Assembly (NCBI GenBank): GCA_036874045.1
Contig: CM072340.1
Span: 6,463,001-6,527,000, forward strand
Reading direction: 5' to 3'
Length of the DNA: 64,000 nucleotides
Source of the DNA: Cymodocea nodosa
Taxonomy: Eukaryota > Streptophyta > Magnoliopsida > Alismatales > Cymodoceaceae
Shown piece after piece: positions 28,539 through 54,761 of this stretch. A program made the translations under genes and the position numbers. Each line of letters begins with the position of its first letter. Position 1 is the first letter of the stretch. The notes under the pieces are model-generated. The model did not search any database and was not told the origin of the DNA. It saw only the letters and a list, made by a program, of their open reading frames with translations.

Positions 28539-28540
28539 AT

Positions 28541-29963: not shown

Positions 29964-30141
29964 GAAATACCTTATTGTGGTGGACTGATTCGATCTTATA
30001 GAGATGGCACCACTGTGTTTGCCATCAAACGAAAATCAGGTCATATGTGGCTGCCAAGAGGCAATAGATTTAATGTTTTAAGGACTAACTCCTCTGGACC
30101 CAAGAAGATCTGGGTACCAAAAGCTTTATTTTCAGTATGAT

Positions 30142-33219: not shown

Positions 33220-33587
33220 ATATTTTTTTCATCAAGCTCACAACATGGGAGCTTGTTTTTCTACTAACCTACTCGTGCAGGTTATATCAGTTTTATAGTC
33301 CTCACCTTTTTATATAATGACAAAAAGGGGGAGAAGGATTTGGAAATTTGTCAAGTATATGGTCACTCATAGTATTTCTAGCAAGAATTAAAAGAGAAAA
33401 ACTCAATACACAGATAGGGGGAGAAGTCTGCTCAAAGTCAGGGGGAGGAATCCCTCATTGTCAGTATAGTTGTGTTAATTTCTTGTTTTATGTTTCTCTA
33501 TGTGACTAAATGTATAGAAATACACTAGGGAGTGAAATACATGTAAATAATTGTAAAGGTTTTTGTCATTATCAAAAAGGGGGAGAT
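33220..33587 (+). promoter_or_regulatory. family B unit 2 3' UTR and polypurine tracts
   Basis: Terminal PPT AAAAAGGGGGAGAT at 33574-33587, plus the same upstream G-rich runs as unit 1. No ORF. Confidence 0.85.
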
Positions 33588-35292
33588 TGTTAGTACTTGA
33601 GTATTTTGATAATGCAAAACCTATGTGAGGAAACATATTGTATTTCCAGTTAAGTCTTACTGCATTAGATCAGAAGGTTGTTAGAACTATTTCCAGACAG
33701 ATGAAAAGATCAAGAAGGTTCCAGATGAACAGATCAAGAAGATTCAGCAAAATCGGACAGTTACAGGTCTAAGTATCCGAAGAGCCAATTTAAAGCAGCA
33801 GTAATGCTATCGGATAGTTAAAAGAATAACTATCCGATTTTACAAAGCCTTCGGAGAGTTATTTAATCAGACAGTTAAAGGGTTTAAATGATCGGATAGT
33901 TAAGGAGATAACTATCCGAAAGCTTAATGGAGTTTTCGGAGAGTTACAGGTATAACTATCCGAAAGTTAAGTCATTCTATAAACCACGTGCAGAAATATA
34001 GAATAGAAGATTAAAAGACTTGTCGGAGAGTTAGATAACTGTCCAAGTTTTCTTTTCGGAGAGTTAGATAACTATTCGAGTTTTTCGGTAAGTTACAGGC
34101 ATAATTTTTCGGAACTTAAGTTTTTTTTTACGCACGTGCAGAATGAAGAAACCCGACAGTTGAAAGCTTAAATGGGAAAATCGGAGAGTTAGGATAACTA
34201 TCCGAAATTTAAAAGAGTGTTTCGGTAAGTTACAATTTAACTATCCGAAACTTAAGTTAATGAATTTCCCATGTGTAGAAATCCAAATAGATGCTCAAAT
34301 AGGTTTTTGGAGAGTTAGAAGGATAACTATCCGAAATTTCAAAACAGTTTTGGTGAGTTACAGTTTAACCATCTGAAACTTAAGTCATCGAATTTTCAGA
34401 GAGTTAGGAAAATAACTATCCGAAATCTTGTAGAATTTTGGTGAGTTACAAGATAACCTTCCAAAATTTGACAGAGTCAAGTATACAACTGTTCGGTGAG
34501 TTACAGTTATAAGTATCTGATTGGATGAGAACTCACATTTAAATATTCTGGAATCCTACCTGGCAGTAAAGGATAAGTGATTTTTCGGTGAGTTACAGTT
34601 ACTCTTCGGAGAGTTGCACTAACTATCCGAAAGAACCGAAAAATCGGTAAGTTGACTTGAAACGTTTTTCTGAATGGTCACTTGCCGTATTGGGACTAGA
34701 TCCTAATTAAGTACAGTAGAATACATCCGTTGGAGGAAAATATAATCGTTGTACATATCAAGTATATATTCAAAATACAGACAACAGATATACGGCAGAG
34801 ATATACAGTGAGCTACACTCGAATTCCATTTACACTCAAGTCTGTAAATAGTGAAGAATTTTTAGAAGATCCATTGTAGAAAAAGCTCTTGCACCAAAAC
34901 TCTGATTGAAGGTTTAAAGCTGTTGGTTCGTGGCTTCAAGCTGAAAGCTACATACAGTGTTGGTTTGAGTTTCGACTTGAAAACTCTAGAGGTTGGTTTA
35001 CTGAAGTTTTTACCTAAAAACTTCTGTGTAGTTGGTTCTTGCTTTGACCTGAAAGCAAGTGTGTAAGTGTTGATACACTTAGTGAAGCCCAAGTGAACCT
35101 TGGGGGTGGACTAGCCAATTTGGTGAACCACCTAAAAATTTGCTGTGTGTTTCTTATCTCTGTTAATTTGCATTATATCAGTTTTATCTCATTTCATTTT
35201 TGTTGAATTATTCGATTCAACATTTAAAGAATTTAAAAAAAATTCACACTTTCACCATTAACCCCCCTCTAGTGAGCCTGTCGATCCTAACA
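33588..35292 (+). repeat. family B LTR 3 (1705 bp)
   Basis: TGTTAGTACT to CGATCCTAACA, followed directly by the TSD ATGCT. It has lost one block holding the fourth G-box (near 34390) relative to LTRs 1 and 2. Confidence 0.94.
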
Positions 35293-35297
35293 ATGCT
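35293..35297. repeat. target-site duplication ATGCT, right copy (family B array)
   Basis: Exact copy of 20018-20022 after the outer LTR. Confidence 0.93.
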
Positions 35298-35798
35298 AAC
35301 TTAACAAGTTAAACATGTGCATCTCACGTGATATACTAAAACATTTAAATTCAACACGTGCATAATTATATCTTAACAAGTTCAAATATTTCGGACACTT
35401 ACGAACCTAACTATCCGATGCTTAGATGCATTTCGGATAGTTAACAGATAACTTACCGAAAATCCACTTAAGTCATGCATTGTAGTTTTAATACGTGTAA
35501 TCCAGGAAATAATAAAATATTTTTTAACCATTTAAAACATAACTGTCCGGTACATTAAACATAACTCTCCGAAATTACAGAAAATTTGAATACCTAAGAA
35601 TTTCACAACCTGCAATTTACCGACAGTTCAGAAATGTACTAAATTAACATTAATTCCCTGGAATTATGCAAATTCTTTTATTAAAGCATATAACAGTGCA
35701 ATTATAATATAATGACTTAATTCTCATATGATAAGCTAAATATTATGCAATTAACCATCATTTAACCGTTAATATTATACACTTTTTCATTCTAAAGA
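35298..35798 (-). repeat. Athila-2 3' LTR, PPT-proximal part
   Basis: Continues the LTR split at 20022. Its last ~100 bases match the end of the right LTR (49160-49252). The terminus reads CTAAAGA where the other LTR has CTAAACA, so its TG start (minus strand) is mutated to TC. It contains TTTCGGATAGTTA-type hairpins at 35388-35470. Confidence 0.85.
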
Positions 35799-35812
35799 CT
35801 TCCCCCATACTT
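35799..35812 (-). promoter_or_regulatory. Athila-2 polypurine tract
   Basis: Minus strand AAGTATGGGGGAAG immediately before the 3' LTR. A second GGTATAGGGGGGAGG run lies upstream at about 37064-37078, next to a CATTGAGGACAATG word, a pairing often seen near the 3' end of plant gypsy elements. Confidence 0.75.
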
Positions 35813-37541
35813 AAATTTTGCTAGTTCCTTAGCAAATTAAGATCTAACTAATTAGTCTTTCTAAAGTGCTAGATTTAATTCTTCATTTCGCTCTTCTTCA
35901 GAATCATAAATTAGATTACTATATAGATATTCTGTATGCTTTAGTAATCTGTTTTAACTTTGTTTCTTCCTCTTCAACCTGCAAATATATTTAGAATATA
36001 TGTAAATTACATACAAAATATATCAACATCACATAGGTGTTAATTATATTATCATTTTTTTCTTTTCAGCATCTGTCATCCAGAATTTTGCAATATGATT
36101 TCCAAAATAAATTTCAAGTACATATGAATCAAAGCACAATCCAATTCAATATGATTAAGACAAGTAGAATAAAGAATTGTATCTCAAATAAACAACTTCA
36201 AAAGTCTATTCTAGATTCATATTTCAGCAATTTTAGATAACAGAACATATACTCAATTCAGAAGATATTTGTATTTCACAAAACACTTATATCTTTTCAA
36301 AACAGTATATGCATATTTGTACTTTTAAAAGTTAATTTGACAAGCTTGAATCATACAAGAGCTTTCTAGTGTACCCATGTGTCGAGCTTTCAGTCAACAA
36401 TCCTAGATCTAATCATGATCTTAGGTTGCCAGATTTAAAGAGTCCTTTTTAGGTCAACAATCCTTACATACCTATTTGCTCAAGTACAAAAGGCTCGTGA
36501 TCAAACAAGTCAACAAACTCTCAAAATTTTTCTCTTTTTTTTTCCACAATATATGTACGTATTTCATTAATAAAGATGCAATAAAACACCAATCTCATAT
36601 AGTCCTGCTTCTATTATTTATTGAAAATATGAATCCATATCAATAAGTTCATACTTTTTTCTGTAGTTTAATAAGATCTACACATAAATCATTCTACAAG
36701 TTTAATCAATCAAATTAAATGTATCATTGATCATATGTATTTCCTTTAATCCAAAAAATCAACATTTTAGCTCTTTCAGGATTTCAGATAATTTACTGAG
36801 TTTCAGTTAAACATTCTGATTTCTTTTTTAAAATCATGAAACTGTTAAACTCATAAATTTTAGCAAAAACATAAGATACTATATCTAGATTTGTATGAGT
36901 AGTAAAATTTGTAGCATCTTATATAAGATTCTAAATATAACATTCAAGCAGTTACAATTCTTAAAAAAAAATTACATTCTCAATTATCAATTTCCACAAA
37001 ACTTTGTAGTACCATTCTAATTCCTTTAATTAACAAACTTACATGGCTATTACTTTAATTACCTCCCCCCTATACCTATTTTTTTTGCATTGTCCTCAAT
37101 GTAAAAGATTTGACAATAAATACAGTATTTGTAACAGGCATGAATATTGTTTCGTTGACATAGCATCTAACTCAACGAACTTAATTCGTTGAGTTAATGA
37201 ATAACTCCATGAATTGACTTTAAATCTAAATTCAGGATAAGTAATCAATTACATATCTTGTTTCATTTGTATCTCCTTCTATATATTCCGATTTTTGATT
37301 CTGAAAAACTTTTTATTCACAGATAAAAGCAGAATATATAACAAAATAACATTTAATAGATATTTATAAATCAATGTCTTGTGTGGAACCCAAGCTCCTA
37401 TGTCTTTGGTGGCTCACAAGCAAGCCAGTTGGTTTCCTAGAACAGATACCAACAAACTGGATTGATATTTTTGTTTTTTTTATTTTTTATTTTTAAAATA
37501 AATGCAGACTATACACAACATTTAAAACACAAAATCATACT
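35813..37541 (-). other. Athila-2 3' non-coding region, shared in part with copia family C
   Basis: About 1.7 kb after the F-box ORF. From about 36000 to 36790 it is clearly homologous to 57540-58375 of copia family C (same strand sense within each element); the blocks GTTTTATTGCATCT, CTTTTGTACTTGAGCA, TTTAAATCTGGCAACCTAAG and AAGCTCTTGTATGATTCAAGC match. That homology ends at a TTTGCAGG splice-acceptor-like site near 35975. A CTCAACGAA/TTCGTTGAG hairpin lies at 37170-37196. No ORF of interest is seen. Confidence 0.75.
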
Positions 37542-38681
37542 TTAAGAACATGACTGAAAAGTAGTAACAAATGGAATAAACGTGTCAGTCCAAGCAAACT
37601 TTTTTGGCATAATTCTTCTTGCTATCAATTCTATTTCAATGCAGTCTATTTTCCTTTTTAATTTGTAAACTTGTAGTATGTTATCAATACTAAATATAAG
37701 TATATTTCCATTAATGAAATGAAATGCAGAAAGAGATCCTCTTCTATTCCAAGATAGTGTGGTTGTTTCTATTTCTACATCTATTTCAATATATTCCTCT
37801 TCCCACTTCCATTCATTTAGGTCTTTTATAATTCATATTTGAAATTTCTTCAATTCATCCCACCATCTTATCAGACATAGAGTAGGATCATCATATTCAT
37901 TATACCACATTCCTAATTGAATTTTATCATATTCTGTATATGGTGGTTTAGCTATATCACTTGGTATAGGCAAAATTTCTATATAGTCATTATCATAATT
38001 ATCTATGCTTACTATGTATAAATCAGATCTAAATGCAACTGATATATCTGTGACTAAATATATATATCCATCAAGTATGACATGTATGCTGTTAATTAAT
38101 GATTTCTGTCCTAGATATATCATATTGTTTTCAGTCCAAGATCTATTCAGAAAATTATACACACTTAAGCATAAATTTTCATCCCAATTTCTAGTAGGTC
38201 TCCAATAATATAATTTTTTAGGAATGGTTGAATTTTTATCAAAAAATATTAAAGCTAACCCACAATTTTCAGTTGGTACTTCATGTCTATTAGGTCGTTC
38301 TATATTCCATTCTTCTCTTGTGAGAGGATTTCTAATCAAAATATCAGGTAACAGAATTGCATACTTTGGTTTGGTTCTGTATATAATTAATCCTTCATCC
38401 ATTCCCATAATATGATCTATTCCTTCTAATGCATTGGGTGGAATTCCAGTAGTTTCATCCATATTCAGATATTCATAGTTGATTGAACTACGATTAAATG
38501 ACTTTCATAAAAATCCATCTCTAATCTTAGTCATTTTTGTAGCTTGTAGTCCATGAAAATATTTTTTTCTAACATAGTCTTTAATATCCTTTGATACACA
38601 ACATAATCTGCATAGATCTTAAGCTGACAAGTTACTCAGTACTTCCCTTTGTGCGTCCAACGGTAATTTTAAGAATTCCAT
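37542..38681 (-). pseudogene. F-box protein gene carried by Athila-2
   Basis: One frame of about 380 codons from ATG 38681 with only three stops. The N-terminus is an F-box: LPLDAQREVLSNLSA, stop, DLCRLCCVSKDIKDYV, RKKYFHGLQA. The C-terminal part resembles plant F-box-associated domains (IDHIMGMDEGLIIYRTK, IRNPLTREEWNIERPN, WDENLCLSVYNF, IPSDIAKPPYTEYDKIQLG) and, after a TGA at 37833, ends FAWTDTFIPFVTTFQSCS. F-box proteins are substrate adaptors of SCF ubiquitin ligases. A homologous copy lies in Athila-1 (51009). It sits downstream of gag with a splice-acceptor-like site before its ATG. Probably a host gene captured by the Athila ancestor. I cannot name the parent gene. Confidence 0.72.
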
Positions 38682-38692
38682 CTATTGTGATT

Positions 38693-38906: not shown

Positions 38907-40254
38907 TCATTTAGCTACCCTCCTAGAGGAGGTATCAATTTCATTAACAGTTTTGTTAATAGGGTTAGGAATTGCTTGCATTGGCAATCCTCTAGTAGGT
39001 CTAACTTCTATCGATTCTTTCTGTCTAAGGGGTATATTTCTATTTATATTTTGATTTTGAATTGTAGCATTTCCAAATACAAAATCTAGACGATTGTTTA
39101 ATTGTTGAATTATCTTTTCTAATTTCTCTATTCTAGATCCTTGTTCAATTAATGCTTCATAACTTATATTCTTGTCATTTATATTTTCTCCTCCATGGAA
39201 ATTGTTGTTTCTCCAAGATAAATTTGGGTGATTTCTCCAATTAGGGTTATATGAATTTCTAAAGTTATATTTCTGGTTTCTAGCATAAATAATATCTAGA
39301 TCATTAATGTTTGCATTCTTTTCTACTAGTTTTTGATTTAATGATAACTCTTCTATTTTCTTTGTTAGTTCAGTTAATTTCACTTCCAGCATAGTGCTTG
39401 AATCTATTTCATGCATTCCCCTTGGCAATATTCTTTTATCTGCAATAGCTTTAGCTAAGTTATCTCATTGTGCAGTTTCTTTTTGCAAAGTTTTCTAAGT
39501 ATGCCCATGCTTCTTCACTATACAATTTTAAAAATCCATTTTGACAAATAGATTCTAATAAAGATTTCGTTGAAACATCTATGCCTTCATAAATTATACC
39601 TATCAATTGTGCTTTACTCATTGCATGATGTAGGCATTGAGTTAGTAAATCTTTAAATCTTTCAAAATATTTCCAGAATGATTCTTCCTATTTTTGGCTA
39701 CACATTAAGATTTCCTTTTTCTTTTTAATCATTTGATGTGTTGGATAATATTTTTCCAGAAAAACAGAGCAAAATTCAGTCCATGTAGAAATTGAATCAG
39801 GTGATAGAGTATATAACCATCTCTTAGCTGTCTTTTAAAGCAAAAGGGATATATCTAAGTTTAATAGCATCTATACTCATATTCGGCATTTTCATCATTT
39901 GACAAACTTCGTTAAATTCTCTAAGGAAATAATAGGCATCTTTTCTTTCTAATCCATGAAAATGTGGCAATTGACTAATATAATTAGTTTCAATTCAAGC
40001 CTATCTTCCTCAAAGTTTGGCAGTCGAATACATGAAGGTTCATCAACTAATTCAGGATATAGAATTTCCCCTAATGGTTTTTCTACTAGAGCAGCCATAT
40101 CTTCATTCTCTTTTAAAGAAAGGTTTGCTACACCCATAAGGATTTCGTTAAAGTTCAATTCAGAAAATGTTTCAGTACACCTCTATGTTAAATACTCCTA
40201 GGTAGGTGTTCTTACTAATCGTTTAGTGCTAGGAGAACGAGTCCATGTGCTCAT
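38907..40254 (-). pseudogene. Athila-2 gag (capsid), located downstream of pol
   Basis: Starts near ATG 40254 (MSTWTRSPSTKRLVRTP), then FNEILMGVANLSLKENEDM, LVDEPSCIRLPNFEEDRLEL, a retrotransposon capsid domain (broken, 39450-39950), MLEVKLTELTKKIEEL, and the Athila signature NSYNPNWRNHPNLSWRNNN. It ends with a coiled coil (IEKLEKIIQQLNNRLDF) and VNEIDTSSRRVAK. The last 173 codons are open (38907-39428). No CCHC knuckle is seen here; one sits in the PBS-proximal ORF instead. Canonical Athila gag lies just after the PBS, so this position is abnormal. Confidence 0.83.
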
Positions 40255-41229
40255 AAACTCTTAACCTATAGTAAAATAGTGGAAGATTAATTACATACCA
40301 GTCCGAAGCTTTCTATTCAGTAAATAGTTGTTGACGGATGAAGTTGAATCAGCTGCTTCTCCTTCTAGTTCCCCAACGAATTTTCTTTTCTCTCAAAAGT
40401 GCTGGTAACTAGTAAATAACATTCTATTCTATATTTATAATGCACGTCCATAAAGTAAATAAATCTCGTTGCAAGAACGTGTATTGTGATGTGCAGTGTG
40501 GTTCCTATTTTTCTAGGTAAGTGTGCCACTTCTAATTTCAAATTTCAATAACTGTTAAACCCACAAAGTTTTGTTCGTGGCTAAAAGAATAACTATTTAG
40601 CTTAATCCACGAACTAACCTTGTTGAGTTACAGATAACTCAACGGAATAGCTTTGATTACTACTACTAACTCCACGGACTAACTTCGTTGAGTTACATAT
40701 AACTCAATGGAGTGACCTTATATTATATTATTGACCTCGTGGAGTTAAGGTTAACTCAACAGACTTACTTCGTTGAGTTAACACTTAGCAACCTCTAAGT
40801 TTACTCCTCGTAAATACTTTTCTACTCTCCTGCATTTTTCCAACTTAAATAAAGTTAAATACATGTCATTAATGTAGCATTCTAATTAAAACTCATTTAA
40901 ATCTAAACATTATATAAATATTTAACTTGCATTTCATTTCATGTTATGCAGAATTTATATTTTACCTTGCAGCATGTAGATATTTTCAAACATTAATCAA
41001 TTATCTTTCATTTAATCATGTCATTCAACAAATTGTAAATCTTTTAAACAATCTTGCATAATGTTCCACAAATTATATAATATTCAATATAGTTCATCCA
41101 TTTCATCATTCTCAAACACGAATGAAAAATATATCTGAAAAACATATATTCTTTAATATGAATAATTTACATTACAACTTAATCAAATATTTTTCATACA
41201 AATATATACAAGTAGACGAACAATACAAT
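40255..41229 (-). promoter_or_regulatory. Athila-2 ORF3-gag spacer with TATA box
   Basis: Non-coding 975 bases. Minus strand carries repeated CTCAACG/CGTTGAG hairpin arms (40610-40780), then a TATAAATA box at 40432-40439, about 180 bases before the gag ATG. The same sequence in Athila-1 is 17771-18573 plus 49258-49445, with TATAAAAAG at 49261. It looks like an internal promoter or a remnant LTR; no TG...CA LTR edge or PBS is found in it. Confidence 0.55.
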
Positions 41230-43472
41230 TTAGTCTTTTCTCCTAAGTTCATCTACTTCCTTCTAGAGCTTTTCTACTTGTTGCTTTAATTGGTTAATCC
41301 TTTCTACAGCTCCTGTAATTCCTCCAGAAGGTTCAGCAATCTCTACAGCTACATAATTTCTGAACTCTTTCACTAAAATGGTTCTTGATCTGATCCTTTT
41401 GGATGCCCATTTAGTGAAATCGATACAATCCACCATCAGCAATGGAATCAGATCTCCATAAAATAATTTCTTCTTCACTATTCTCAGCTTGGAGATAAAA
41501 ACTGTAGACCAATTTATTTGAATTCTATTTACAACTACATATGTGGCCCACTTGACAAATTGACTTAGTTCTATATCATGGCTTTGTCGTTGGTAGATAT
41601 TCTTAATTAGAATGTTTGCTATCATGTGTGATGTACCATTTAACTGTTTTAGTCTATTTAATAACGACACACCAAGATTGATAGCTAAACAATCCTTGAT
41701 TTCCTGTTCTGTCCACTCAATAGTAGTTGTACTTTCCAAAATTTCTTTCCCTTCATTTTTCAATCCTAAAATGTTATGGAGAAGCTCTAGTGTTATCTAC
41801 ACATCAGCTTCCTCCACGTTGGAAATTAATCCTCCTTCTCCTTCTCTTAAGTTTGCATAAATGCAGGGCACTAGATTCTCATATACTACATGCCCTCTTT
41901 CTTGAGAAATAAACTTCAGTAGACCTTGGAATTCAAATAATTCTTTGATTTCTTGCATTCCGTCCTAATTTACTAGTCTACTGTAAATGATATTATAACC
42001 CCTAATCTCTTGGTATTTGTCATAAGCTTCCTGACTTCGAAAATGTACTTCATTTAAAATTGTTGCTTCAGAAGGATCAGGAATATGCATTTGTTGCTCC
42101 TGAGAGGTTTGTTCTTGAACTTCCTCTTCCAAATGTTGAACTTGTACTTGCTGAAAATGCTCCACAGATTTTGGCATTTTTGCTTTTGCTTTTGTCTATG
42201 GTGGTGAGCCGGCAGAACTCTCCACTTTGTCTTGAATACTGTCCAAAATTTGCTGAAGAGTTCTTTGCTCTTTAGTGGAATCTGTTGAGTCCTCTCTTTC
42301 CATATATACTTGTTCAGCTTCTTGTTCATTTTTTTCTTCTTCTTCTTCCTCCTGACTACCAATCTGCATTGTCACTATTCTTTCTGATTCTGTGGCAGAT
42401 TGGGATGGAGTTCTAGGCAAATCAACTTCTGCCCTAATTTTTGTTTCTTCTATTTGTACAGGCTGCAGACTAGTTTCAGCCTGTTTTTCTTCTTCTCTTT
42501 GCTTTTGCTGTTGCTCCTACTCCTTAGAATCGGATAGCAGGTTTACAAAAATTGGCTCTACAAGCCCTATTGACATTTGTCTTTCAGATTTAATCTCTTC
42601 TTGATATTCAAACACTATCTCTTTTCCTTTCCTTTTTCTAATTAATTGTGTTTGGTCTTCCTCTTCCTTGTTTGAAATTAAATCCACAAAAATAGGCTCT
42701 ACATGCCTTTGAGACATAGGTACTAGCTCTTCTATTTAACTCTTTCAATAATTACTGGTCTCGAAGGACCAGCTTCATCTCCTTTTGCAGTAGGTCTAGC
42801 AGTAGCTTCTTAATGTTGTTCCACTTTGATTTTATATTGGTCTTTCAACTTTTCTACAGCCCTCTTTTTGTAAAGTGCATCAAATACTAGGTGTGCTTTA
42901 GCCACTACTAAATCTTTTGATTCTCCTTGGTTTTTCCCAACTCAAACCAGTTCTTCAAATTCTCTTAATTCTTCTTCGTTTGAAGGCCCCATAACTACCA
43001 CCCTTTTTAATGATTTAGGAGGTGGATTTGAAGGTCCTAGCTGTTGTTCCTCAGGAACAGGTCTTTCAGTAGTCGGCTCCTCTTGTTCTTCAGTTGCCTC
43101 TTCTTCATTTTCTTTCCTTTCTTGCTCCCAGATTGCCCATTAAGCTTGTCTACCTATTCGTCTTTTGAACCAGAGCTGGAACTTACGTTGGATTAATTCT
43201 AGGGCAACTTCGTTGTTTGGCCTGATTTTTCTCTCTTTACTTACAGCAATTTCCGCAGCAACCTTTATTCTTGTTTCCATTATTTGAGGTATTTGTATAC
43301 CCAAATCTACTAAAACTCTTCTCCAGTTGAAAAGTTCAAATTCTACCTTTTGTAGTTCTTTTTCTCTTGTCGTATTCCTAATTTTCTGCCTCGTGTGCCA
43401 TTCCTCCGAGTCTTTAAGAAATTCTAAAGTGTCTACTACCTTTTCCCAGAACTCAGGTGTCATCTTCCTCAT
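41230..43472 (-). pseudogene. Athila-2 ORF3, extra ORF downstream of pol
   Basis: About 747 codons from ATG 43472 (MRKMTPEFWEKVVDTLEFLK) to the stop at 41230. N-terminal charged region open 43140-43472 (LVDLGIQIPQIMETRIKVA, RKIRPNNEVALELIQRK); acidic, Gln-rich middle with two EPIFVDLIS/EPIFVNLLS repeats (about 42540-42700); C-terminal domain EVHFRSQEAYDKYQEI, ELFEFQGLLKF, ILGLKNEGKE, MIANILIKNIYQ, VVNRIQINWSTVF, KKLFYGDLIPLLM, FTKWASKRIR, then a Glu/Gln coil. Several stops. Same protein as in Athila-1 and homologous at its C-terminus to the family C copia ORF. Position is that of env-like ORFs, but no membrane segment is visible. Confidence 0.83.
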
Positions 43473-44138
43473 CGTAGAGTTATGCAATGGAATGGAGTCG
43501 CTCTGATCTCTACTGTTCTAAGTTCTAAATGATTCTACAGATAATGCCCCCAAACCCTAAGTTTAATATAAATAAGCCCTAAGTTTAGGCGGGTAATTGG
43601 ATCATTTCCCACACCAACTCTCGCTCTCTCATTCATGGAATTACGATTAACTCCACTAACTAAGTCATGGACTTAACTACAGTACTCCATTGAGTTATAG
43701 TTAACTCAATGGGGTAAGTTCATTAACTAATCCTAGACTCAACGGAGTAAGTTTGTTGAGTTAAGCCTAACTCAACGGACTTCCCGTAAAGTTATATCTA
43801 ATAAAAATACTTAAAAAAATAATTTTTCTTCAGTCAAGACCGAAGAATTTCCGGTCTAGCCACTCTTACTTTTTCCATATTTTAAAAATTCTTCGGTCAA
43901 ACCGTTATGTTCCTCAATTGAACCGAAATTAAATATTTTCTTTCTTTCTTCATTTTTTTTACTAGTTGAATCGATACTATGCTTCGGTAAAATTGATGTT
44001 TTTACTAAATAATATATAGAATTTTTTTTTTGTTTTTATGTTTCGGTCAGATCGATGGATCTTGTCGGTTGAACCATAACAATTTTTTAAATAAATTGTT
44101 TTTTTTTTTTTTCAAGTTATATACTTAGAACTTTCTTA
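43473..44138 (-). promoter_or_regulatory. Athila-2 integrase-ORF3 spacer with hairpin repeats
   Basis: Counterpart of 13085-13814. Minus strand has TTCGGTTGAACC- and CGGTCTAGACC-type words (43830-44070) followed by ACTCAACGGA / CCGTTGAGT arms (43640-43790) and a TTATTTATATTAA element near 43570. No ORF. Confidence 0.55.
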
Positions 44139-45075
44139 CTAAGTAAAGCTTGAGTAGTCCTCTACTCTTATTTCTACAATTCCAAAAGAACTTTTTGGTA
44201 TCTTCAAAATAGGTCTAAGTTTTTGTCTATTTACTTTAAATATATTCTGATTTTTAGGATTTTCAATCTCAATAACTCAATAGGGATAAATATTTCGAAC
44301 TATATAAGGTCCTGCCCATCTAGATCTTAATTTTCCTGGATAGTTATGGAGTCTAGTCATATAAAGATATACTTCTTGTCCTATTTTAAAGGTTTTTGGA
44401 ATAATTTTCTTATTATGCCAAAACTTCATTTTCTCTTTTTCTCTTACAGTTTTTGAATAAGCTTCATTCCTAAATTCTTCTAATTCAATCAATTGTAATT
44501 TCCTATTTTCAGCAGCTTGATTTAAATTAGTGTTTAGAGTTTTTCATGTCCAATAAGCTTTATGTTCAATTTCAGCTAGTAAATGACAACTTTTTCCATA
44601 TACTAGCCTAAAAGGTAACATACCTAAGCTTGTCTTATAAGCAGTTCTATAAGCCCAAAGTGCATCTATTAATCTATTAGCCCAATCTATTCTAGTAGGA
44701 TTTACTACTTTTTCAAAGATTAACTTAATTTGTTTGTTGGCACTTTCTACTTGTCCACTTGTTTGCGAATGATATGATGTTGCAATTTTGTGGTTCACTC
44801 CATATTTCTTCATTAAGGCTTCAAAAATTCTATTACAGAAATGAGTTCCTCTATCACTGATAATAGCTTTAGGTATTCCAAATCTAGCAATTATATTGGT
44901 TCTTATAAAATGTATTACCACTTTGTTGTCATTAGTTTTTGTAGGAATAGCTTCTATCCATTTAGATACATAATCCACCCCCAACAATATATAATTAAAT
45001 TGATTAGACATAGGAAATGGACCCATAAAATCTATTCCCCATACATCAAAAGATTTCAACCTCAACAATAGGATT
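44139..45075 (-). pseudogene. Athila-2 integrase, lacking the N-terminal zinc domain
   Basis: Open 44544-45068: [94 protein letters not shown], giving the D, D and E of a gypsy integrase. After one stop near 44540 it continues to the GPY/F module (RSRWAGPYIVRNIYPY) and the stop at 44139. The HHCC zinc domain normally present before ILEVEIFDVWG is gone: the RNase H tail (LEIKDKKGCENVVVDSSL) runs almost straight into [10 protein letters not shown] one-base shift in a T run near 45070 also breaks the frame. Confidence 0.88.
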
Positions 45076-46547
45076 CAATCTTTCTATCAAAGAGGAATCT
45101 ACTACTACATTCTCACAACCCTTTTTATCTTTAATTTCTAGATCAAATTCTTGTAATAATAATATCTATCGAATCAATCTAGGTTTAGTCTCTTTCTTAG
45201 CTATTAGGTGTTTTAAAGCTGAATGATCTGTGTATACTATTACTTTAGCTCTAATCAGATATGATCTAAACTTCTCTAAGGCAAACACAACAGCTAACAG
45301 CTCTTTTTCAGTAGTTGTGTAATTAACTTGAGCATCATTTAGGGTTTTGCTTGCATAATGAATCACTCTAGGAGATTTTTCTATCTTCTATCCCAACACT
45401 GCTCCTACATCAAAATCAGATGCATTGCACATTAATTCAAATGGATGGCTCCAATTAGGTGCTTGAATTATAGGAGTTGAAATTAAGCTAGTTTTAAGCT
45501 TGAAAAATGATTATTTGTAATTTTTATCAAAGTTGAATGGGACATCTTTTAATAGATTAGTTAAAGGTCTAGCTATTTTGCTAAAATCTTTAATAAATCT
45601 TCTATAAAATCCAGCATGTCTTAGAAATGATCTAATATCTTTTATTGATTTAGGTTCTGGTAGATTAGAAATTACTTCTATTTTAGCTTTATCTACTTCC
45701 AACCCCTTTTTTGAAACAACATGACCCAAGACGATTCCTTGATTAACCATGAAGTGACATTTTTCCCAATTTAGAACCAGATTTTTTTCCACGCAGTGTT
45801 TTAATACTTGGTCTAAATTGTTTAAACACACTTCATATGAGTTCCATAAATAGTAAAATCATCCATAAATATTTCTAAAAAATCTTCAGTCATTCTAGTG
45901 AATATGCCCTGCATACACCTTTGAAAGGTGGCTGGTGCATTACATAATCCGAATGACATTCTCTTAAAAGCATAAGTTCCATTAGGACAGATGAAAGTTG
46001 TTTTCTCTTGATTCTCTAATGCTATTGGAACTTGGTTATATCCTAAATACCCGTCTAGGAAACAAAAATATTCTTGCCCTACTAATTTCTCTAGTATTTG
46101 ATCTATAAAAGGTAAGGGAAAATGATCTTTCCTAGTTATAGCATTCAACTTTCTATAGTCTATACACACTCTCTAGCCTGACTGAATTCTAGTAGGTATC
46201 AAGTCCTGACTTTCATTCCTAATTACTATTAATCCTGATTTCTTGGGAACTACATGGATTGGACTAACCCATGAGCTATTGAAAATCGGATAAATTATGT
46301 CATTATCTAACCATTTCACTATTTCCTTCTTGATTACTTCTTTAAGGTTTGGATTTAATCTCCTCTCAAGAATTCTAACAGGTTTAGCATTCTCCTCTAA
46401 ATATATATGGTGACAGCATAAAGTTGGACTTAACCCTTTTATATCAGTCATAGTCCATCCTATTGCTTCTTTATAAGTTTTTACTACATCTTTTAATTTA
46501 GCTATTTGATCCTCTTTTAAATCTGAAGCAATAATGATTGGACATGT
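45076..46547 (-). pseudogene. Athila-2 reverse transcriptase-RNase H
   Basis: After protease a TGA (46548) is followed in frame by PIIIASDLKEDQIAKLKD, EAIGWTMTDIKGLSP, RILERRLNPNLKEVIKKE, IIYPIFNSSWVSPIHVVPKKSG. After a TAG come VCIDYRKLNAITRKDHFPLP, TFICPNGTYAFKRMSFGLCN, and the active site FMDDF. A frameshift near 45830 moves to VLKHCVEKNLVLNWEKCHF, ISNLPEPKSIKDIRSFL. RNase H has MCNASDFDVGAVLG and [33 protein letters not shown]. Standard gypsy RT-RH with catalytic Asp residues present but at least four frame breaks. Confidence 0.88.
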
Positions 46548-47438
46548 TCATTTTTCTTCTAGAAATATATAGGTTAATTCAGGAGGTAAAGGTTTTAATT
46601 CTAAATGTTGTCCATCAAAAGCAAGAGCTCCTAATTGAACATCCTCATTTTCTAAATTAATTTCTTCTTGATCTCCTTCTATATTTATGCTTTCACTTTC
46701 CTCTAAAGTTTCAAATTTGAGTTTCCTATTTAATTCTTCTTGAATAACATCATCTAGCATATCTCCTTCATCCTCTAAAAAGTCTATGGTATGTAAGGAC
46801 GTTTCTATGGCCTCAAACTTTTCTAGTTTGAAAATGTTTAATTGAGTATCCTCATTGCCATATGATAACTTCATTACTCCACTTGTACGATTTATAACCG
46901 CCCCTGATGTTGCTAAAAATGGTCTTCCCAAAATTAAAGATGTATCATTATTTTTATGCTTAATTTGTTGGGAATCCAAAATTACAATATCAATAAGATA
47001 TATAAAATTTTTGATTTTAATTAAGACATCCTCTATTTTTCCTCTAGGGTATCTTATACTTCTATCAACTAATTGAATAACCATACTAGTAGGAGTTAAG
47101 CCTTCTAATCCTAAGGATGCAAATATATCACTTGGCATAACATTTATACCAGCACCTAAGTCTATTAAGGTTCTTTCTAGAATGGTATTTCCTATGGTGC
47201 ATGATATAATAGGGATTCCAAGATCAGATAACTTTTTAGGAATTTGTGGCAGAAATAAGGAACTACTTTGCTCAGCTAAAAAGATTTTTCTTAAAACTTT
47301 TCGCTTTCTTTTCTTAATATACCAACCCTTAAGAAATTTAGTACAAGGTGTCATTGTCTGCAATAAGTCTAACAAAAGAATGTTAACTTCTACTTTTTCA
47401 AAAATTTCTTTAATTTTTTCTTGTTTTTCAGGTAATGT
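46548..47438 (-). pseudogene. Athila-2 aspartic protease and flank
   Basis: Open 275 codons (46548-47375) plus upstream FEKVEVNILLLDLLQTM. Typical Athila region: TMTPCTKFLKGWYIKKRKRK, IPIISCTIGNTILERTLIDL, then GAGINVMPSDIFASLGLEG, VIQLVDRSIRYPRGKIEDVL, LILGRPFLATSGAVI. The active site reads DLGA, the usual gypsy variant of DSGA. The downstream part is acidic (EEINLENEDVQLG). It would cut the Gag-Pol precursor. Same frame as the upstream linker ORF, separated by a TAG at 47439. Confidence 0.87.
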
Positions 47439-48350
47439 CTATTGTAATCTTTCAGGATAGGGTGCTAATGATTGTGATTTAAAAGATTCTTTTTCTTTCA
47501 TTTGATTTGTTTGATCATTCTTAGTCTCATTTTTTGATTCAGACTTTTCTTCATTGATTTCTATAATTTTAGATATTATATTTTCATTATCATTTTGATT
47601 TGTGTTCTTACCCATCTTTATATTACTTTCTTTTTGAATTCTTGGTGGTATATCAGTTCTAGATCTTAGTGTTATACATACATCTTCCAGATTTTCGTTA
47701 CTCTCATGATGTTCTTGTATATTATTTTCGTGATTATGATCTTCAATTGTTTTTAGTTTTAAAGTACATTCTTTAAATTCTATTGCATTGGTATTCTCTT
47801 TTGTCTGTATATCTTGCAAATTATGCAGATCTATAACATTATAATTTTCATTGTCCTATTGCATAACTTGTATTTTCATTGTAAACTCGTCCAATGCTTT
47901 TAGTTTTCTTTCCAGATCATCTAATCTCATTACATTCAATTTTTGATTGATTTTCATTATAGTTTTTTCAGTTTCGTATATAATATCAATTTTAGGTTCT
48001 GAATATGCTTCCTTATAATTTAATTGGTTGACTTCTTGTTGCTGACACATAAAGTGTTATAGTTTGTCCATGTTTTGCTCTATACTACACTCTAGTCTTT
48101 CATACCTATCCCAAACTTCCGTGTCTCTCAACATATTACACATTCTATACTGACCATCAATTGGGTAAACCATAGGATTCTCATTCTCGGCTCTATTATA
48201 TTGAAGATAATTCATTTATTGTTCATGTGATCTAACTATCTTCAAACGTCTTAGTTTCAAATAATTAGAAATATTGTGACCTTCAGAATTACAGAATTCA
48301 CATATGCTAACTACAGGTTTCAGAAATCTTTGAGCATAAGAATATGTCAT
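47439..48350 (-). pseudogene. Athila-2 PBS-proximal ORF: zinc knuckle, coil and ITLRS linker
   Basis: First coding region after the PBS, from ATG 48350. A CCHC-like knuckle near the N-terminus (ICEFCNSEGHNISNY), then MVYPIDGQYRMCNMLRD, a coiled-coil-like stretch (LDDLERKLKALDEFTMKIQV), an acidic linker with CITLRSRTDIPP and APYPERL, the sequence that normally joins Athila gag to protease. Three stops. The capsid domain that should precede this is absent here and present at 38907-40254. Confidence 0.75.
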
Positions 48351-48432: not shown

Positions 48433-48450
48433 TTCCCAGCAACGGCACCA
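48433..48450 (-). promoter_or_regulatory. Athila-2 primer binding site
   Basis: Minus strand TGGTGCCGTTGCTGGGAA, close to the TGGCGCCGTTGCCGGGGA used by Athila/Tat elements (tRNA-Asp). Seven bases separate it from the LTR. Confidence 0.85.
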
Positions 48451-48457: not shown

Positions 48458-49252
48458 TGATTGCCTTGTTAACTTCTATTGGTAACTTAGTTAATTTATC
48501 TTTATGCTCATCAGTAATTCCTTTTTAGAAGTCAATAAACCATCTTTCACACAAATTAGATATTAATTCCAATTTGTATTTTAACTACAAGTGCACAGTG
48601 TATATTGTATTTGTGTACAAGTACAGGTCGATCTCACAGAGAATTGAGGAATAATTGTGTACTGTTCCATTTTTAATAATGAAATTTATATATTCAGTAA
48701 GCACTCCGTTGAGTTATAGCTAACTCAACGAACTAACCTCGTGAAATTAAAGTAACTCAATGAAGCTATCTATCCAATTTAATATTGCTATTTACAAAAG
48801 AATTCGGTCAACCATTGAGCAGTTCCACAGATTGTAAATAACATCAATTAAGCTCTCTAATGCTAGTTAATATTAAATTTATCATTCTGCAATACTAACA
48901 TTCAGATATTTCAAACATTAACTATTAAAATCTTTAAGTATCAGGAACAATTCAATTTCAGTAAAATGTAAAACTATTTTCTATTTTCTAAATTAAACAA
49001 ACATGAAGCATTCCAAACACTAACAATGATAACATTAATCACGATACAAAACAAATAATACAACACTCAAATACTAACTATAAACACAGATAAGTTGTTT
49101 TTGGTATTTTTGTTTTTATATGATCATGAAAATGGGCGAAAGGTGAAATGTAAAAGTATAACATAATGGCTTAATTCTCATATGATAAGCTAAATATTAT
49201 GCAATTAACCATCATTTAACTATTAATACTATGCACTTTTTCATTCTAAACA
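48458..49252 (-). repeat. Athila-2 5' LTR with large internal deletion (795 bp)
   Basis: TGATTGCC at 48458 to CTAAACA at 49252. Matches the 3' LTR at both ends, but about 1.16 kb is missing at 49156 (the junction GAAATGTAAAAGTA / TAACATAATGGC). The lost part includes 19283-20022 and 35298-35700 of the other LTR, so the promoter region has probably gone. Confidence 0.87.
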
Positions 49253-49257
49253 ACATG
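49253..49257. repeat. target-site duplication ACATG, right copy (Athila-2)
   Basis: Matches ACGTG at 18569-18573 except for one CpG transition. Confidence 0.8.
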
Positions 49258-49260
49258 CAT

Positions 49261-49269
49261 TATAAAAAG
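49261..49269 (+). promoter_or_regulatory. TATA box before Athila-1 gag
   Basis: TATAAAAAG about 180 bases before the gag ATG; equivalent to TATAAATA at 40432-40439 in Athila-2. Confidence 0.5.
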
Positions 49270-49445
49270 AAAACAAAATGTTATTTACAAGTTACCAACA
49301 CTTATGGAGAGGAAAGAAAATTCGTTGGGGAACTAGAAGGAGAAGTAGCTGATTCAACTTCATCCATCAACAACTATTTACTGAATACAAAGCTTTAGAC
49401 TGGTATGTAATTAATCTTCTACTATTTTACTTTATGTAAGAGTTT

Positions 49446-50788
49446 ATGAGCACATGGATTCGTTCTCCTAGCACTAAATGATTAGTAAGAACACCTACAT
49501 AGGATTACTCAATATAGAGGCATACTGAAATATTTTTTGAATTGGACTTTAACGAAATCCTTAGGGGTGTAGCTAACCTTTCTTTAAAAGAGAACGAAGA
49601 TATGGTTGCTCCAATAGAAAAACCATTAGGGGAAATTGTGTATCTTGAATTAGTTGATGAATCTTCATCTATTTGATTGCCAAACTTTGAGAGAGATAGG
49701 TTTGAATTGAAATCTAATTATATTAGTCAATTGCCACATTTTCATGGATTAGAAAGAGAGGATGCCTATTATTTCCTTAAAGAATTTAATGAAGTTTGTC
49801 AAATGATGAAAATGCCGAACATGAGTATTGATGCTATTAAACTTAGATATATCCCTTTTGCTTTAAAAGACACAACTAAGAGATGATTATATACTCTATC
49901 GCCTGATTCAATTTCTACATGGACTGAATTTTGCTCTGTTTTTCTAGAAAAATATTATCCAACTCATCAAATGATTAAAAAGAAAAAGGAAATATGAATG
50001 TGTAGCCAAAAATAGGGAGAATCATTCTGGAAATATTTTCAAAGATTTAAAGATTTACTAACTCAATGTCCACATCATGCAATGAGTAAAACACAATTAA
50101 TAGGTATAATTTATGAAGGCATAGATGTTTCAACAAAATCTTTATTAGAATCTACTTATCAGAATAGATTTTTAAAAGTGAAGAAGCATGGGCATACTTA
50201 GAAAACTTTGCAAAAATAATTGCACAGTGGGAAAACTCAACTAAAGCTATTACAGAAAAAAGAGTATTATCAAGGGGAATGCATGAAATAGATTTAAGCA
50301 CTATGCTTGAAGTTAAATTAATTGAATTAACAAAGAAAATGGAAGAGTTATCATTAAATCAGAAACTAGTAGAAAAGAATGCAAACGTTAATGACTTAGA
50401 TATTATTTATGCTAGAAACCAGAAAGATAACTTTGGAAATTCTTATGACCCTAAATGGAGAAATCACATGAATTTATCTTGGAGAAACAACAATTTCCAG
50501 GGAGGAGAAAATATAAATGACAAAAATATAAGTTATGAAGAATTAATTGAACAAGGATCTAGAATAGAGAAATTAGAAAAGATAATTCAACAATTAAACA
50601 ATCGTCTAGATCTTGTATTTGGAAACACTACCATTCAAAATCAAAATATGAATATAAATATACCTCCTAGATAGAAGGAATCAATGGAAGTTAGACCTAC
50701 TAGAGGATTGCGAATGCAAGCAGTACCTAACCCTGTCAATGGAATTGTTAATGAAATTGATACCTCATATGAGAGGGAAGCTGAATGA
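49446..50788 (+). pseudogene. Athila-1 gag (capsid), downstream of ORF3
   Basis: MSTWIRSPSTK at 49446, then FNEILRGVANLSLKENEDM, LPNFERDRFELKSNYISQLP, HFHGLEREDAYYFLKEFNEV, LRYIPFALKDTTKR, TLSPDSISTWTEFCSVFLEK, SFWKYFQRFKDLLTQCPHHA, IGIIYEGIDVSTKSLLEST: a standard retrotransposon capsid (Retrotrans_gag type). The C-terminal part (50279-50674) has the NSYDPKWRNHMNLSWRNNN signature and coil IEKLEKIIQQLNNRLDL. About eight stops and two frame changes. Followed by the F-box ORF as in Athila-2. Confidence 0.84.
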
Positions 50789-50964
50789 AGGAGTATAACC
50801 AAAGTAACTATGTATAATATAGTAAATAGAAAAATATAATAAAAAAAGTGTGAGTTTAGTTATAGTTAGTAATATCGTAGAGTTATTACTTAACAAACTT
50901 AGTCCATTGAGTTATGACCTAACTCCACGAGGGTAAGTAAGTAGCTATGTTGATTTTGTCTCTA

Positions 50965-50988
50965 TTAATTTTTGTTTATGTTATACAG
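50965..50988 (+). promoter_or_regulatory. candidate splice acceptor before Athila-1 F-box ORF
   Basis: T-rich tract ending TTATACAG, 20 bases before the ATG at 51009; conserved in Athila-2. Confidence 0.4.
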
Positions 50989-51008
50989 AATCACAACAGA
51001 TAGAATTG

Positions 51009-51603
51009 ATGAAATTACCACTAGATGCACTGAGGGAAGTACTGAATAACCTATCAACTAAACATCTATGCAGATTGTGTTGTGTATTGAAGGAAATTAA
51101 AGACTATGTTAGAGAAAAATATTTTCATAGACTACAAGCTGCAAAAATGACTAAGATTAGAGATAGATTTTTATGGAAGTCATTTAATCATAGTTCAATC
51201 AGCTATGAATATTTGAATATGGAAGAAACTACTGGAATTCCACCCAATACATTAGAAGGAATAGATCATATTATGGGGATAGACGAAGGATTAATTATAT
51301 ACAGAACCAAACCAAGGTATGCAATTCTATTACCTGATATTTTGATTAGAAATCCTATCACTAGAGAAGAATGGAATATAGGAAGGCCTAATAGATATGA
51401 AGTACCAACTAAAAATTGTGGGTCAGCTTTAACATTTTCTAATAAAAAATTGACCATTCCTGAAAAATTGTATTACTAGAGACCAACTGGAAATTGGGAT
51501 GAAGATTTATGCTTAAGTGTGTATAATTTTTCTGAATAGACCTTGGATTGAAAATGCCTTGATATATCTAAGACAAAAAGCATTAATTAACAACATACAT
51601 ATC
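51009..51603 (+). pseudogene. F-box protein gene carried by Athila-1, truncated by family C insertion
   Basis: ATG 51009 and open for 157 codons: MKLPLDALREVLNNLSTKHL, CRLCCVLKEIKDYVREKYFH (F-box), FNHSSISYEYLNMEETTGIP, IDHIMGIDEGLIIYRTKPRY, ILIRNPITREEWNIGRPNRY. A TAG (51477) replaces the Trp of YYWRPT. A one-base shift near 51530 follows, and the copia family C LTR cuts the gene at 51604. The F-box region has no stop here, unlike the Athila-2 copy. Adjacent upstream gene is gag in the same orientation. Confidence 0.72.
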
Positions 51604-52234
51604 TATAGAGTATTTTGTTTTGATGATGTGTGCTGAATGAAAATAATCATATTTTCTCAATTACTATTGCTTGTGAAAAGAAATTAAAATCATCAATTAA
51701 TACAAAAAAAACATACTGATATAAATACTTGTTTGTATTGGATCAAAAATTATACTAAGTTAATAACTAGTCGTTTCATTGCATTAATTTCTCATTTAAC
51801 TAAATGTTAAGTAAACGTGTGTTTTTATTGAAAAGCATGATATGTTTTAAAGTTATATTTTCTATATCATGAATAGTGCACGTTTAGACAACTCATTAAG
51901 TTAGAGTGTTGTTCATATAGAGATCATGTGAGAACTCGTTAAGTTAGAGGCTTAAAGGTTAAAATAGGTTACGTGAGAACTCGTTGAGTTAGTGAGTAAA
52001 AGAAGAGACAAACTCGTTAAGTTAGTGTTGTACACGTGGTGAAATTATAAGTTACGAATGTTATATTGTATCACGTGAGGTGCACATGTTTAACTCGTTA
52101 AGTTAACATAACTAAGCGCATTGAGTTGCTATATTGAACACTGAGGCAACACGTTAGGTTAGTGTTAGAAAACGTAAGTTGTTATTTTTGCACATGGTAA
52201 AATTCTTATTATAAAAACATTTGTTTATTACTAG

Positions 52235-52350
52235 TTCGTTGAGTTAGCGTAACACAACAGAGATGGTTCATTGAGTTATTGTAACACAATGGAGATGGTT
52301 CATTGAGTTAGCGTAATACCACAGAGATAGTTCATTGAGTTAACTACAAT
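52235..52350 (+). repeat. 32-bp tandem repeats in family C LTR 1
   Basis: Three full units and a partial, starting 52235, 52267, 52299 and 52331, each TTCRTTGAGTTAGCGTAA followed by a CACAACAGAGATGG-like tail. The solo LTR has about two units and LTR 2 one. Confidence 0.8.
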
Positions 52351-53038
52351 ACTTGTCACGTGAGTTGGGACATGAGTAACACGTTAAGTTAGAAACGTTA
52401 AGTTATATATATACTTGTGTAACTCATTTAGTTAACATTAAAGTAACGACTTCTTATTATACTTGATGAAAAATTTTGGAAGAGAAAGTTTATTTTGTAG
52501 GAAATTTTTCAGAGATCTAAGATTGATAATTAAAGAAAATTTGAAATGTAAACATGGGTCAGAACGTGTGTATTTTGATGAAGGAAAAAGAAAAGACGTG
52601 AAGAAGTGGAAGACTGATAGTGATTAAACGTGGAGGATATGCATGAAATGAAGTTACAGTATAAAAGGCATAGAATTCTCATTGATCAATTATCCCTGCT
52701 GTAAAAAGACAAAATATTCGTCACTAAAGAATTGCTAAAGAAGAAAGAAGAAGAAGAAGAAGAAAGATCTCAAACAGGGAGAAATGTTTTAAATTCTGCA
52801 AATTAGTTTTCTCTATTTGTAGTTATGAAATTGTATAGATGAAACATGGTATTGATATATAATTGCATCTACAATTTCTGAGGAGAATTGAATTGTATAT
52901 TGTAATTAAAATCTTGAATAAAAATGATTTTATGAAAATAGTGTCTTGACTTGCTTTTGAGTTTTAAAGTTTCAATTATATTCAAAAATATTGAAAAACA
53001 CAATTCACCCCCCTCTTGTGTAGCCATACGATCCTACA

Positions 53039-53587
53039 CCTGCACACCAAAAGAAAAATCTTTTCAAGGATCAAAAACACCTCTTCAGGGAAAAGCTCTC
53101 AGGTGGAAGAAAATTCAGTGAAGTATAAAAAGGTAAGATATGTCATTGAAGATTTGAAGTATCAGATGGAAGAAAATTCAGTGAAGCAGAAAAGGTTAGA
53201 TTTATATAACTGAAGATTTAAAGTATCAGAAGAAAGCAAATTCGGTGAAGCATAGAAAGACAAGATATTCGTCACTGAAGAATTGCTGAAGAAGAAAGAG
53301 AAGAAGAAGAAGAAAGATCTCAAACAGGGAGAAATGTTCTAAATTCCACAAATTAGTTTTCTCTATTATTAGTTATGAAATTGTATAAATGAAACATGGT
53401 ATCGATATATAATTGCATCTACAATTTCTGAGGAGAATTGAATTGTATATTGTAATTGAAACCTTGAATAAAAATGATTTTATAAAAACAATGTCTCGAC
53501 TTGTTTTGAGTTTTAAAGTTTCAATTATATTCGAAAATGTTGAAAAACACAATTCACCCCCCTATTGTGTAGCCATACAATCCTACA
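53039..53587 (+). repeat. tandem duplication of LTR 3' part (second copy, LTR 1)
   Basis: Starts CCTGCACACCAAAAG directly after a complete LTR end (CGATCCTACA). Same junction in LTR 2 at 62945/62946; absent from the solo LTR at 15812. Confidence 0.88.
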
Positions 53588-53589
53588 AG

Positions 53590-53601
53590 TGGTATTATAG
53601 C
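53590..53601 (+). promoter_or_regulatory. family C PBS, unit 1
   Basis: TGGTATTATAGC, a two-mismatch form of the initiator tRNA-Met PBS, two bases after the LTR. Unit 2 has TGGTATTAGAGT at 63498. Confidence 0.8.
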
Positions 53602-53786
53602 TTTGTTAATAATATTTGATATAAAATCGATACCAACTTATTTAATATCATTGCTTATTCTACCTTCCTTATTTTTAAACATAAATTAATATTTGAGCAT
53701 ACATTTAACTTTTTTGATTTAAGGCTCAAGTTGTATTAAAGTTTTAGATTGTTTAAAATCAAATAGGTTGAAAAATCTAAGGTAAG

Positions 53787-54745: not shown

Positions 54746-54761
54746 TTACAAGGAAAAGGCT

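Follow-up and report, generated by a model that had tools for sequence, protein, structure and literature searches.

The order of gag before pol is treated as fixed in long terminal repeat (LTR) retrotransposons and retroviruses, and the locus analysed here raises the question of whether a lineage of elements can propagate with gag placed last. The locus is a window of 64,000 nt from Cymodocea nodosa (GCA_036874045.1, CM072340.1, positions 6,463,001–6,527,000, forward strand), in which an Athila-type element on the minus strand (Athila-2) is nested inside another on the plus strand (Athila-1). We read these, at a probability of roughly 0.85, as Athila-like Ty3/gypsy elements in which gag was moved behind the integrase in an ancestor of several families. 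The gag-last order recurs across many copies and extends to five gag families. The examined 5′ ends lack a capsid, and both gag and a host-type F-box gene that follows it in one family show coding constraint.

The layout was read from a self-comparison of the whole window and from inspection of element borders. Between its own LTRs, Athila-2 has the order primer binding site (PBS), zinc-knuckle open reading frame (ORF), protease (PR), reverse transcriptase (RT), RNase H (RH), integrase (IN), ORF3, spacer, gag, F-box gene and polypurine tract (PPT), and it carries the hallmarks of an LTR retrotransposon: an LTR pair, a PBS, a PPT and a target duplication (one base differing). The 5′ LTR (795 bp, 48458–49252; this and all following Athila-2 features are on the minus strand) adjoins the target duplication ACATG at 49253–49257 and is followed by the PBS (TGGTGCCGTTGCTGGGAA, 48433–48450), which may be of the tRNA-Asp type of Calypso and Diaspora. 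This PBS is one base off a related pattern with 725 exact sites in the genome and 0 for the reversed control; the next best PBS-like sites in the window have six mismatches, and no second site with fewer was found. The 5′ ORF (47442–48350) starts with an ATG at 48350, about 80 nt past the PBS, and continues in a single, stop-broken frame into PR and RT. It contains the knuckle CEFCNSEGH, which lacks its last Cys and reaches zf-CCHC_2 only at E 0.063, and a TLRS linker; no capsid was found in it. The protease region (46551–47438; Asp_protease_2, E 0.0017), RT and RH (45169–46547; RVT_1, E 1e-18; RT_RNaseH, E 1e-23) and IN (44142–45074; rve, E 2e-15; 6028 matches to proteins, of which 120 were listed, those with a name being from plants) follow, and a Pfam scan of the open pieces placed RVT_1, RNase H and rve within 46172–44547.

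Behind the integrase lie a broken ORF3 (41266–43517), which matches an ORF of a copia-type element in tblastn and is under selection in its C-terminal piece (see below), and a spacer with a conserved pre-gag block (40255–41265) that contains neither LTR nor PBS. The displaced gag (38907–40254) comprises the capsid, NPNWRNHPNLSW and a coil, is interrupted by several frame breaks and is missing the knuckle; Retrotrans_gag was matched at 39834–39463, 3′ of IN and ORF3, in two broken pieces (E 6e-7 and 5e-5). The F-box gene (about 37545–38690) is broken in Athila-2. It is followed by a region X (35928–36761) with 75% identity to part of a copia-type element (57556–58413), and by the PPT (35799–35812), within a purine tract that contains GGGGGAAG, adjoining the 3′ LTR. 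That LTR is split into a first part (35700–35798) and a remainder (18574–19273) on the far side of a nested copia pile (19274–35699), and the LTR pair has diverged by K 0.062 (0.041–0.083) over 700 columns and by 0.083 (0.034–0.151) over 91 columns. Domain scans and border reading thus bear out what the initial annotation had claimed for Athila-2, namely a knuckle and linker ORF and then PR-RT-RH-IN behind the PBS without a capsid, and a capsid placed after ORF3, at 40254–38907.

Athila-2 was inserted into Athila-1 with a 5-bp target duplication whose two copies differ in one base (ACGTG at 18569–18573, ACATG at 49253–49257). Joined across this insertion, 12601–18573 and 49253–51603 of Athila-1 are collinear with 44616–38079 of Athila-2, so that the two elements have the stretch from IN to the F-box gene in common. 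On the plus strand, Athila-1 consists of three stretches: 12601–15811, with the end of the integrase and ORF3, as far as an LTR-like insertion at 15812–17572; 17573–18573, with the end of ORF3 and the spacer, as far as the Athila-2 insertion; and, beyond it, 49253–51603 with the pre-gag block, gag and F-box. An F-box domain lies behind gag at 50937–51476 (Pfam, E 3e-6). The proposal that Athila-1 has the same order therefore holds for IN-ORF3-spacer-gag-F-box; its 5′ end is absent from the window, which includes just a 69-nt integrase piece at 4910–4978, so that the evidence for a missing 5′ capsid comes from Athila-2 and from copies elsewhere in the genome.

An element of the usual gag-first type was available for comparison. 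When prokaryote assemblies were scanned with an integrase alignment, eight loci were returned, three of which (L002–L004) were judged to be plant-type contaminants by their 66–67% identity. Such plant-type retrotransposon contigs are filed in public bacterial assemblies as contamination (L003, NZ_QPKJ02000021.1; L004, NZ_JABGCL010000066.1; and L002). L003 and L004 each contain a single ORF, of 2004 and 1998 aa, and are counted as one case because the matches fall at nearly identical places. The L003 ORF has the order gag, knuckle (aa 363), NPGW motif (aa 408), TTLRSG (aa 567), PR, RT, RH and IN. Nine of ten downstream gag pieces from the two window copies align to L003 Gag at scores that no shuffle attained (0/300), the exception being the N-terminal piece of the Athila-1 gag, which has no significant alignment (59/300). 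The initial annotation had described a capsid with its usual Gag signature, a motif that we assume to be Athila-type. The capsid stands; the NPNW motif of the downstream Gag is located behind the capsid core, and some 30 knuckle-bearing residues that L003 Gag has between core and motif are skipped in both window copies. The four pieces of the 5′ ORF ahead of PR do not align significantly to L003 Gag (0/4; the knuckle piece is nearest, with 29/300 shuffles), so that what links the 5′ ORF to Gag is the pair of motifs, knuckle and TLRS, spotted by eye. The PR piece, unlike those preceding it, aligns directly to the L003 ORF (aa 732–1044, 0/300 shuffles).

The host genome (374.6 Mb, 28 contigs) yielded 5261 first-look candidates for the C-terminus of the displaced gag, of which 150 were scored, all matching at 86–100% identity. 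Twenty of these were taken across the ranking, each with 6.2 kb upstream and 3.8 kb downstream, and the parts of Athila-2 were mapped onto them. ORF3 together with the spacer or pre-gag block lies upstream on the same strand in 17/20 copies, with the integrase as well in 13, and the F-box gene lies downstream in 19. PPT and 3′ LTR are in reach in 11 copies, and nine have IN, ORF3, capsid, F-box, PPT and 3′ LTR all in range. The gag start, an exact 12-nt match including the ATG, is found in Athila-1, Athila-2 and 15/20 copies, carries one change in L031 and was not found in L019, L022, L032 and L037.

These copies bear on the possibility, already raised in the initial annotation, that the capsid is the 5′ part of a separate old element that landed beside ORF3 by chance and brought its own PBS and LTR. 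Dense nesting in the window would make such a neighbourhood conceivable. None of the 20 copies, however, has a same-strand LTR within roughly 2 kb ahead of gag (LTR-like pieces of 75–76% occur farther upstream in L024 and L027), and no same-strand PBS with up to three mismatches is present in the 20 maps. The junction is instead repeated in Athila-1 and in the 17 copies, inside LTR-PBS and PPT-LTR borders where these are in range, and the sampled genomic copies leave this explanation with next to no probability.

The 5′ ends of the family were approached by placing 12 further stretches, of which five succeeded (L038 and L040–L043) and seven were other or nested elements. All five show an LTR, a leader and a knuckle ORF free of capsid; linker and PR come next in four, and the L038 stretch stops earlier, its linker and PR being in L018. 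Two loci chosen from the PBS scan alone (L058 and L059) show the same arrangement. Including Athila-2, 8/8 family 5′ ends therefore begin with the knuckle ORF and lack a capsid, with 30–45 nt from the last PBS-like site to the knuckle query; L041 and L042 are alike and may be one duplicated copy. Both a capsid-free 5′ end and a downstream gag were seen for five copies, adjacent in L018/L038 and separated by a 1.5-kb unread gap in L021/L040, L025/L041, L026/L042 and L028/L043. On two contigs (C1 and C2), 32 gag matches were compared with PBS positions by coordinates alone. None had an exact same-strand PBS in the 5 kb ahead of it, and six had one within 30 kb, at 6.5, 7.2, 7.7, 8.7, 12.5 and 19.3 kb. 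PBS sites on C2 were covered to 16.25 Mb, and seven gag matches beyond that point were excluded. This comparison has low power because the exact pattern misses degenerate sites, that of Athila-2 included. Among the copies examined, none thus has gag after the PBS, as would have been expected if the window elements were exceptions. As a separate observation, a second PBS-like site occurs about 64 nt ahead of the last one in four of the eight 5′ ends (L038, L040, L043 and L059).

Searching the genome with L003 gag gave 5765 candidates, of which 119 were scored, with identities of at most 36%. Six loci picked from the longer match types all contain a gag ORF of 451–482 aa with an intact knuckle, which follows the C-terminus of the integrase at a distance of 304–692 nt. 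Five of them also have the integrase core, and L053 has the C-terminus alone, preceded by an inverted gag. The Gags of these loci fall into four families; identity is 34–42% among them and with the window family, and 26–31% with L003. One 5′ end of another family (L050), met upstream of L020, has a PBS, about 0.9 kb without detectable capsid, a knuckle ORF with LRSG, and PR (54% identical). No full CX2CX4HX4C knuckle was found in gag frames of at least 150 aa at the 20 loci of the window family, whose downstream gag could for that reason resemble a second, reduced copy in an element that has gag at both ends when functional, the sampled 5′ ends having lost their capsid by deletion. We regard this as improbable: all eight family 5′ ends lack the capsid with the same short distance from PBS-like site to knuckle ORF, the L050 5′ end likewise has none detectable, and in the other families it is a knuckle-bearing gag that lies downstream. 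The view of the initial annotation that a rearranged lineage has been propagated is supported by the genomic copies and 5′ ends, and the four additional gag families go beyond it; the pol-first, gag-last order is a propagated arrangement and probably one of the whole clade.

Whether the downstream genes were coding while they spread was assessed from variants that two or more of the 20 copies have in common. These are expected to be mostly older than single insertions and were set against 1000 reshuffles. Synonymous variants were in excess in gag (82 vs. 53.3 expected, 20 copies, 0/1000 reshuffles), the F-box gene (75 vs. 47.0, 17 copies, 0/1000), the C-terminal piece of ORF3 (90 vs. 51.3, 16 copies, 0/1000) and IN (19 vs. 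10.8, 14 copies, 3/1000); the controls, two other frames of each gene and three spacer frames, gave 55 to 990 of 1000. The downstream gag and the F-box gene are under in-frame purifying selection, and the synonymous excess in shared variants therefore indicates that both were coding during the spread of the lineage. On their own, the two window copies provide a weak test (gag 45/2000, F-box 109/2000, IN 141/2000, ORF3 0/2000). Nei-Gojobori dN/dS (gag 0.39, F-box 0.40) was dropped as evidence of constraint, as a shifted-frame control gave similar values. An F-box domain was matched in a 379-aa open frame of L020 (PF00646, E 1e-9, 38.3 bits against a cut-off of 20.5). Neither the gag C-terminus nor the F-box piece had relatives outside this genome in the protein collection searched, though plant integrases are present there; searches of viral contigs gave nothing useful, and those of NCBIfam and PDB no result for gag or F-box. 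Purifying selection on both genes would also be expected of a transposon-derived pair of host genes that was passively caught. Their identical position within the element in at least 17 examined copies, and the knuckle-bearing gag ORFs behind the integrase in other families, make such an origin hardly credible; nor are the copies found a single locus lying outside LTR borders, as it would require.

A more serious alternative is that the gag-last elements are a non-autonomous swarm, their gag a passenger or part of a gag-only unit and their particles supplied by gag-first helpers. Gag-only, non-autonomous Athila copies are known in Arabidopsis, according to the accessible part of PMC2410132, and most sampled gag copies have broken frames. 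A gag-first copy is nevertheless absent from the 20 and six loci, from the eight family 5′ ends and from the 32 gag matches checked against PBS positions; the L003 query found nothing above 36% identity among the 119 scored matches; and the constraint on the downstream gag is comparable to that on IN and ORF3. On balance we consider the swarm unlikely.

Relocation of gag in an ancestor remains our preferred reading, and the following observations weigh against it. Three of the 20 copies do not show the gag-last order: in L019 an inverted part of an element lies between integrase and gag, with an inverted LTR touching the capsid, in L022 no family part was found ahead of the capsid, and L037 has upstream just a 35% match to ORF3. 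Drawn from 150 scored of 5261 candidates, the sample is biased to the window's family, and few of the 725 exact PBS sites were read, which leaves room for gag-first copies elsewhere. The six loci of other families were chosen from longer match types, and what argues there against an intervening LTR between IN and gag is the missing PBS and the short gap. The other-family 5′ end is a single copy, truncated behind the integrase. Signals for a spliced gag RNA are poorly kept: a leader GTGAGT, 20 nt past the PBS in Athila-2 and the sole one in its internal sense strand, recurs in one of the seven other family 5′ ends (L038, same place), and an acceptor-like AG ahead of gag occurs in Athila-2 only and is not conserved. 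Finally, no copy among those examined was recognised as fully intact.

The age of the arrangement can be approached from divergence between the window copies. Spacer divergence is K 0.175 (0.144–0.206), falling to about 0.10 around gag, and ORF3 has a silent divergence of dS 0.44 (12601–18573 against 44616–40443); integrase, spacer, gag and F-box, at 0.10–0.21, are well under ORF3. Because divergence is so uneven, parts have probably been exchanged between copies, which makes the elements mosaics. The junction of spacer and gag, being common to both copies, would be older than the 0.175 split and the Athila-2 insertion (0.062). We propose that, in the ancestor of several families of this plant, gag was relocated from the interval between PBS and protease to behind the integrase, most likely when an element with pol and a relative with gag only underwent template switching during reverse transcription (or recombined), and that the redundant 5′ capsid would then have been lost. 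ORF3 sits between IN and gag in the window family, whose downstream Gag lost its knuckle and which captured an F-box gene. Two other traces of origin were rejected. A relic of leader and PBS ahead of the downstream gag, seen by eye, was equalled in 126/1000 shuffles and 184/946 windows (PBS alone, 189/1000), and an origin from tandem elements by loss of the central LTR finds no LTR trace in the spacer bar a short motif that occurs throughout the window.

For the production of Gag under such an order, several routes may be considered. A retrovirus-type splice donor behind the PBS was rejected as a general route, GTGAGT being missing in six family 5′ ends; the motif may be a real site that has been lost or is variable. 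No less likely candidates are a different splice or a promoter inside the pre-gag block. The 5′ ORF would yield a Pol polyprotein with a knuckle (nucleocapsid-like) domain of its own, and Gag would be translated separately from the downstream ORF, either from an RNA begun at an internal promoter or from a subgenomic RNA formed by splicing or in another way. Gag would assemble the particles, recruiting Pol and genomic RNA through the knuckle or through Gag contacts, and the F-box protein possibly directs an SCF ubiquitin ligase.

Other features of the window and of the comparison contigs are recorded here in their own right. A copia-type element (LTRs near 51604–53587 and 61266–63495) carries on the plus strand both the ORF3 homologue (59784–60548; tblastn, 33% over 244 aa, E 1.5e-39) and the counterpart of region X (57556–58413). 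Tandem copia arrays of the form LTR-internal-LTR-internal-LTR occupy 20022–35294 (three LTRs, 92–95% alike), and a second array, 51604–64000, extends past the window end. The short motif GTTGAGTTA...TAACTCAACG is dispersed over LTR, spacer, ORF3 region and copia LTRs (13499–13595, 18210–18400, 19886–19938, 40598–40780, 43681–43781, 48707–48730 and 52232–52349). In L002, an ORF behind an Athila-type integrase (1736–2347, plus strand) matches Viral_NABP (33.9 bits, cut-off 23) and comes close to a match with Carla_C4. The extra-ORF position may thus be taken by a nucleic-acid-binding protein of carlavirus type, or the contig may be chimeric.

Systems that are similar in part are known. Ty3/gypsy elements with a copia-like order of pol domains were reportedly described, going by the title, by Goodwin and Poulter in 2002; the change there lies within pol, and here it concerns the position of gag. 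BARE-2 is said, by title, to be a copia element without a gag of its own, whereas here gag is kept on the 3′ side and is under selection. Foamy viruses make Gag and Pol separately, a likeness to the production suggested above, with gag still ahead of pol and thus in the opposite position. Ty3/gypsy elements with a changed order inside pol are cited in the accessible part of PMC2774666. Measured against the Athila lineage, the elements have its PR-RT-RH-IN order; gag does not lie ahead of PR in one ORF, which is the layout described in the available text of PMC1142308. IN is 61–69% identical to plant proteins in the alignment and the RT piece 72% identical to L003, in a comparison that included no named Athila reference or tree, and neither an additional RNase H (Tat) nor a chromodomain is among the Pfam matches of the pieces scanned. 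The consensus elements Athila, Calypso and Diaspora have one gag-pol ORF, and the PBS type of the latter two is given as tRNA-Asp (PMC1142308, in part). The present elements share with them the PR-RT-RH-IN order and an extra ORF behind pol, and differ in having gag as an ORF apart, placed behind IN, and a Pol with its own knuckle.

In Arabidopsis, gag-only Athila elements and recombination, with gag and pol on different elements, have been reported (Marco and Marin, PMC2410132); the recombinants are described there with gag, pol and env, and gag behind pol is not described in the portion available. Plant LTR elements can carry extra sense ORFs between pol and the 3′ LTR and capture host genes (Vicient and Casacuberta, PMC7264820); in the present elements the ORF behind pol is gag itself, and an F-box is not mentioned in the accessible sections of that review. 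Clusters without gag are listed in the Retand paper (PMC11963269, in part). The survey of plant elements by Neumann et al. (PMC6317226), as far as its text was accessible, gives the Ty3/gypsy order as GAG-PROT-RT-RH-INT, reports that GAG was not found in 159/8453 Ty3/gypsy elements, and discarded elements with unexpected domain order as likely mis-predictions; a gag-last lineage could therefore be filtered out by common pipelines. No gag-last element was seen in the available parts of PMC9904347, PMC2669250 and PMC2774666, and none was recognised in the literature searched, which lay mostly outside subscription journals. The gag-last order is a novel layout in a familiar class of element.

A wider proposal, on which we are evenly divided, is that this is the standing order of the plant lineage's whole Athila clade: Pol with its own knuckle, Gag made from the 3′ half, at least five gag families arising after the swap, and an F-box recruited by one of them, possibly turning SCF against silencing or restriction. 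A basic rule of how LTR elements are built, gag first, does not hold in this plant genome. With at least 150 gag matches, and 5261 first-look candidates, the gag-last elements would provide a natural test of the Gag:Pol ratio, packaging and reverse transcription under the reversed order, and their F-box cargo makes a conflict between element and host testable.

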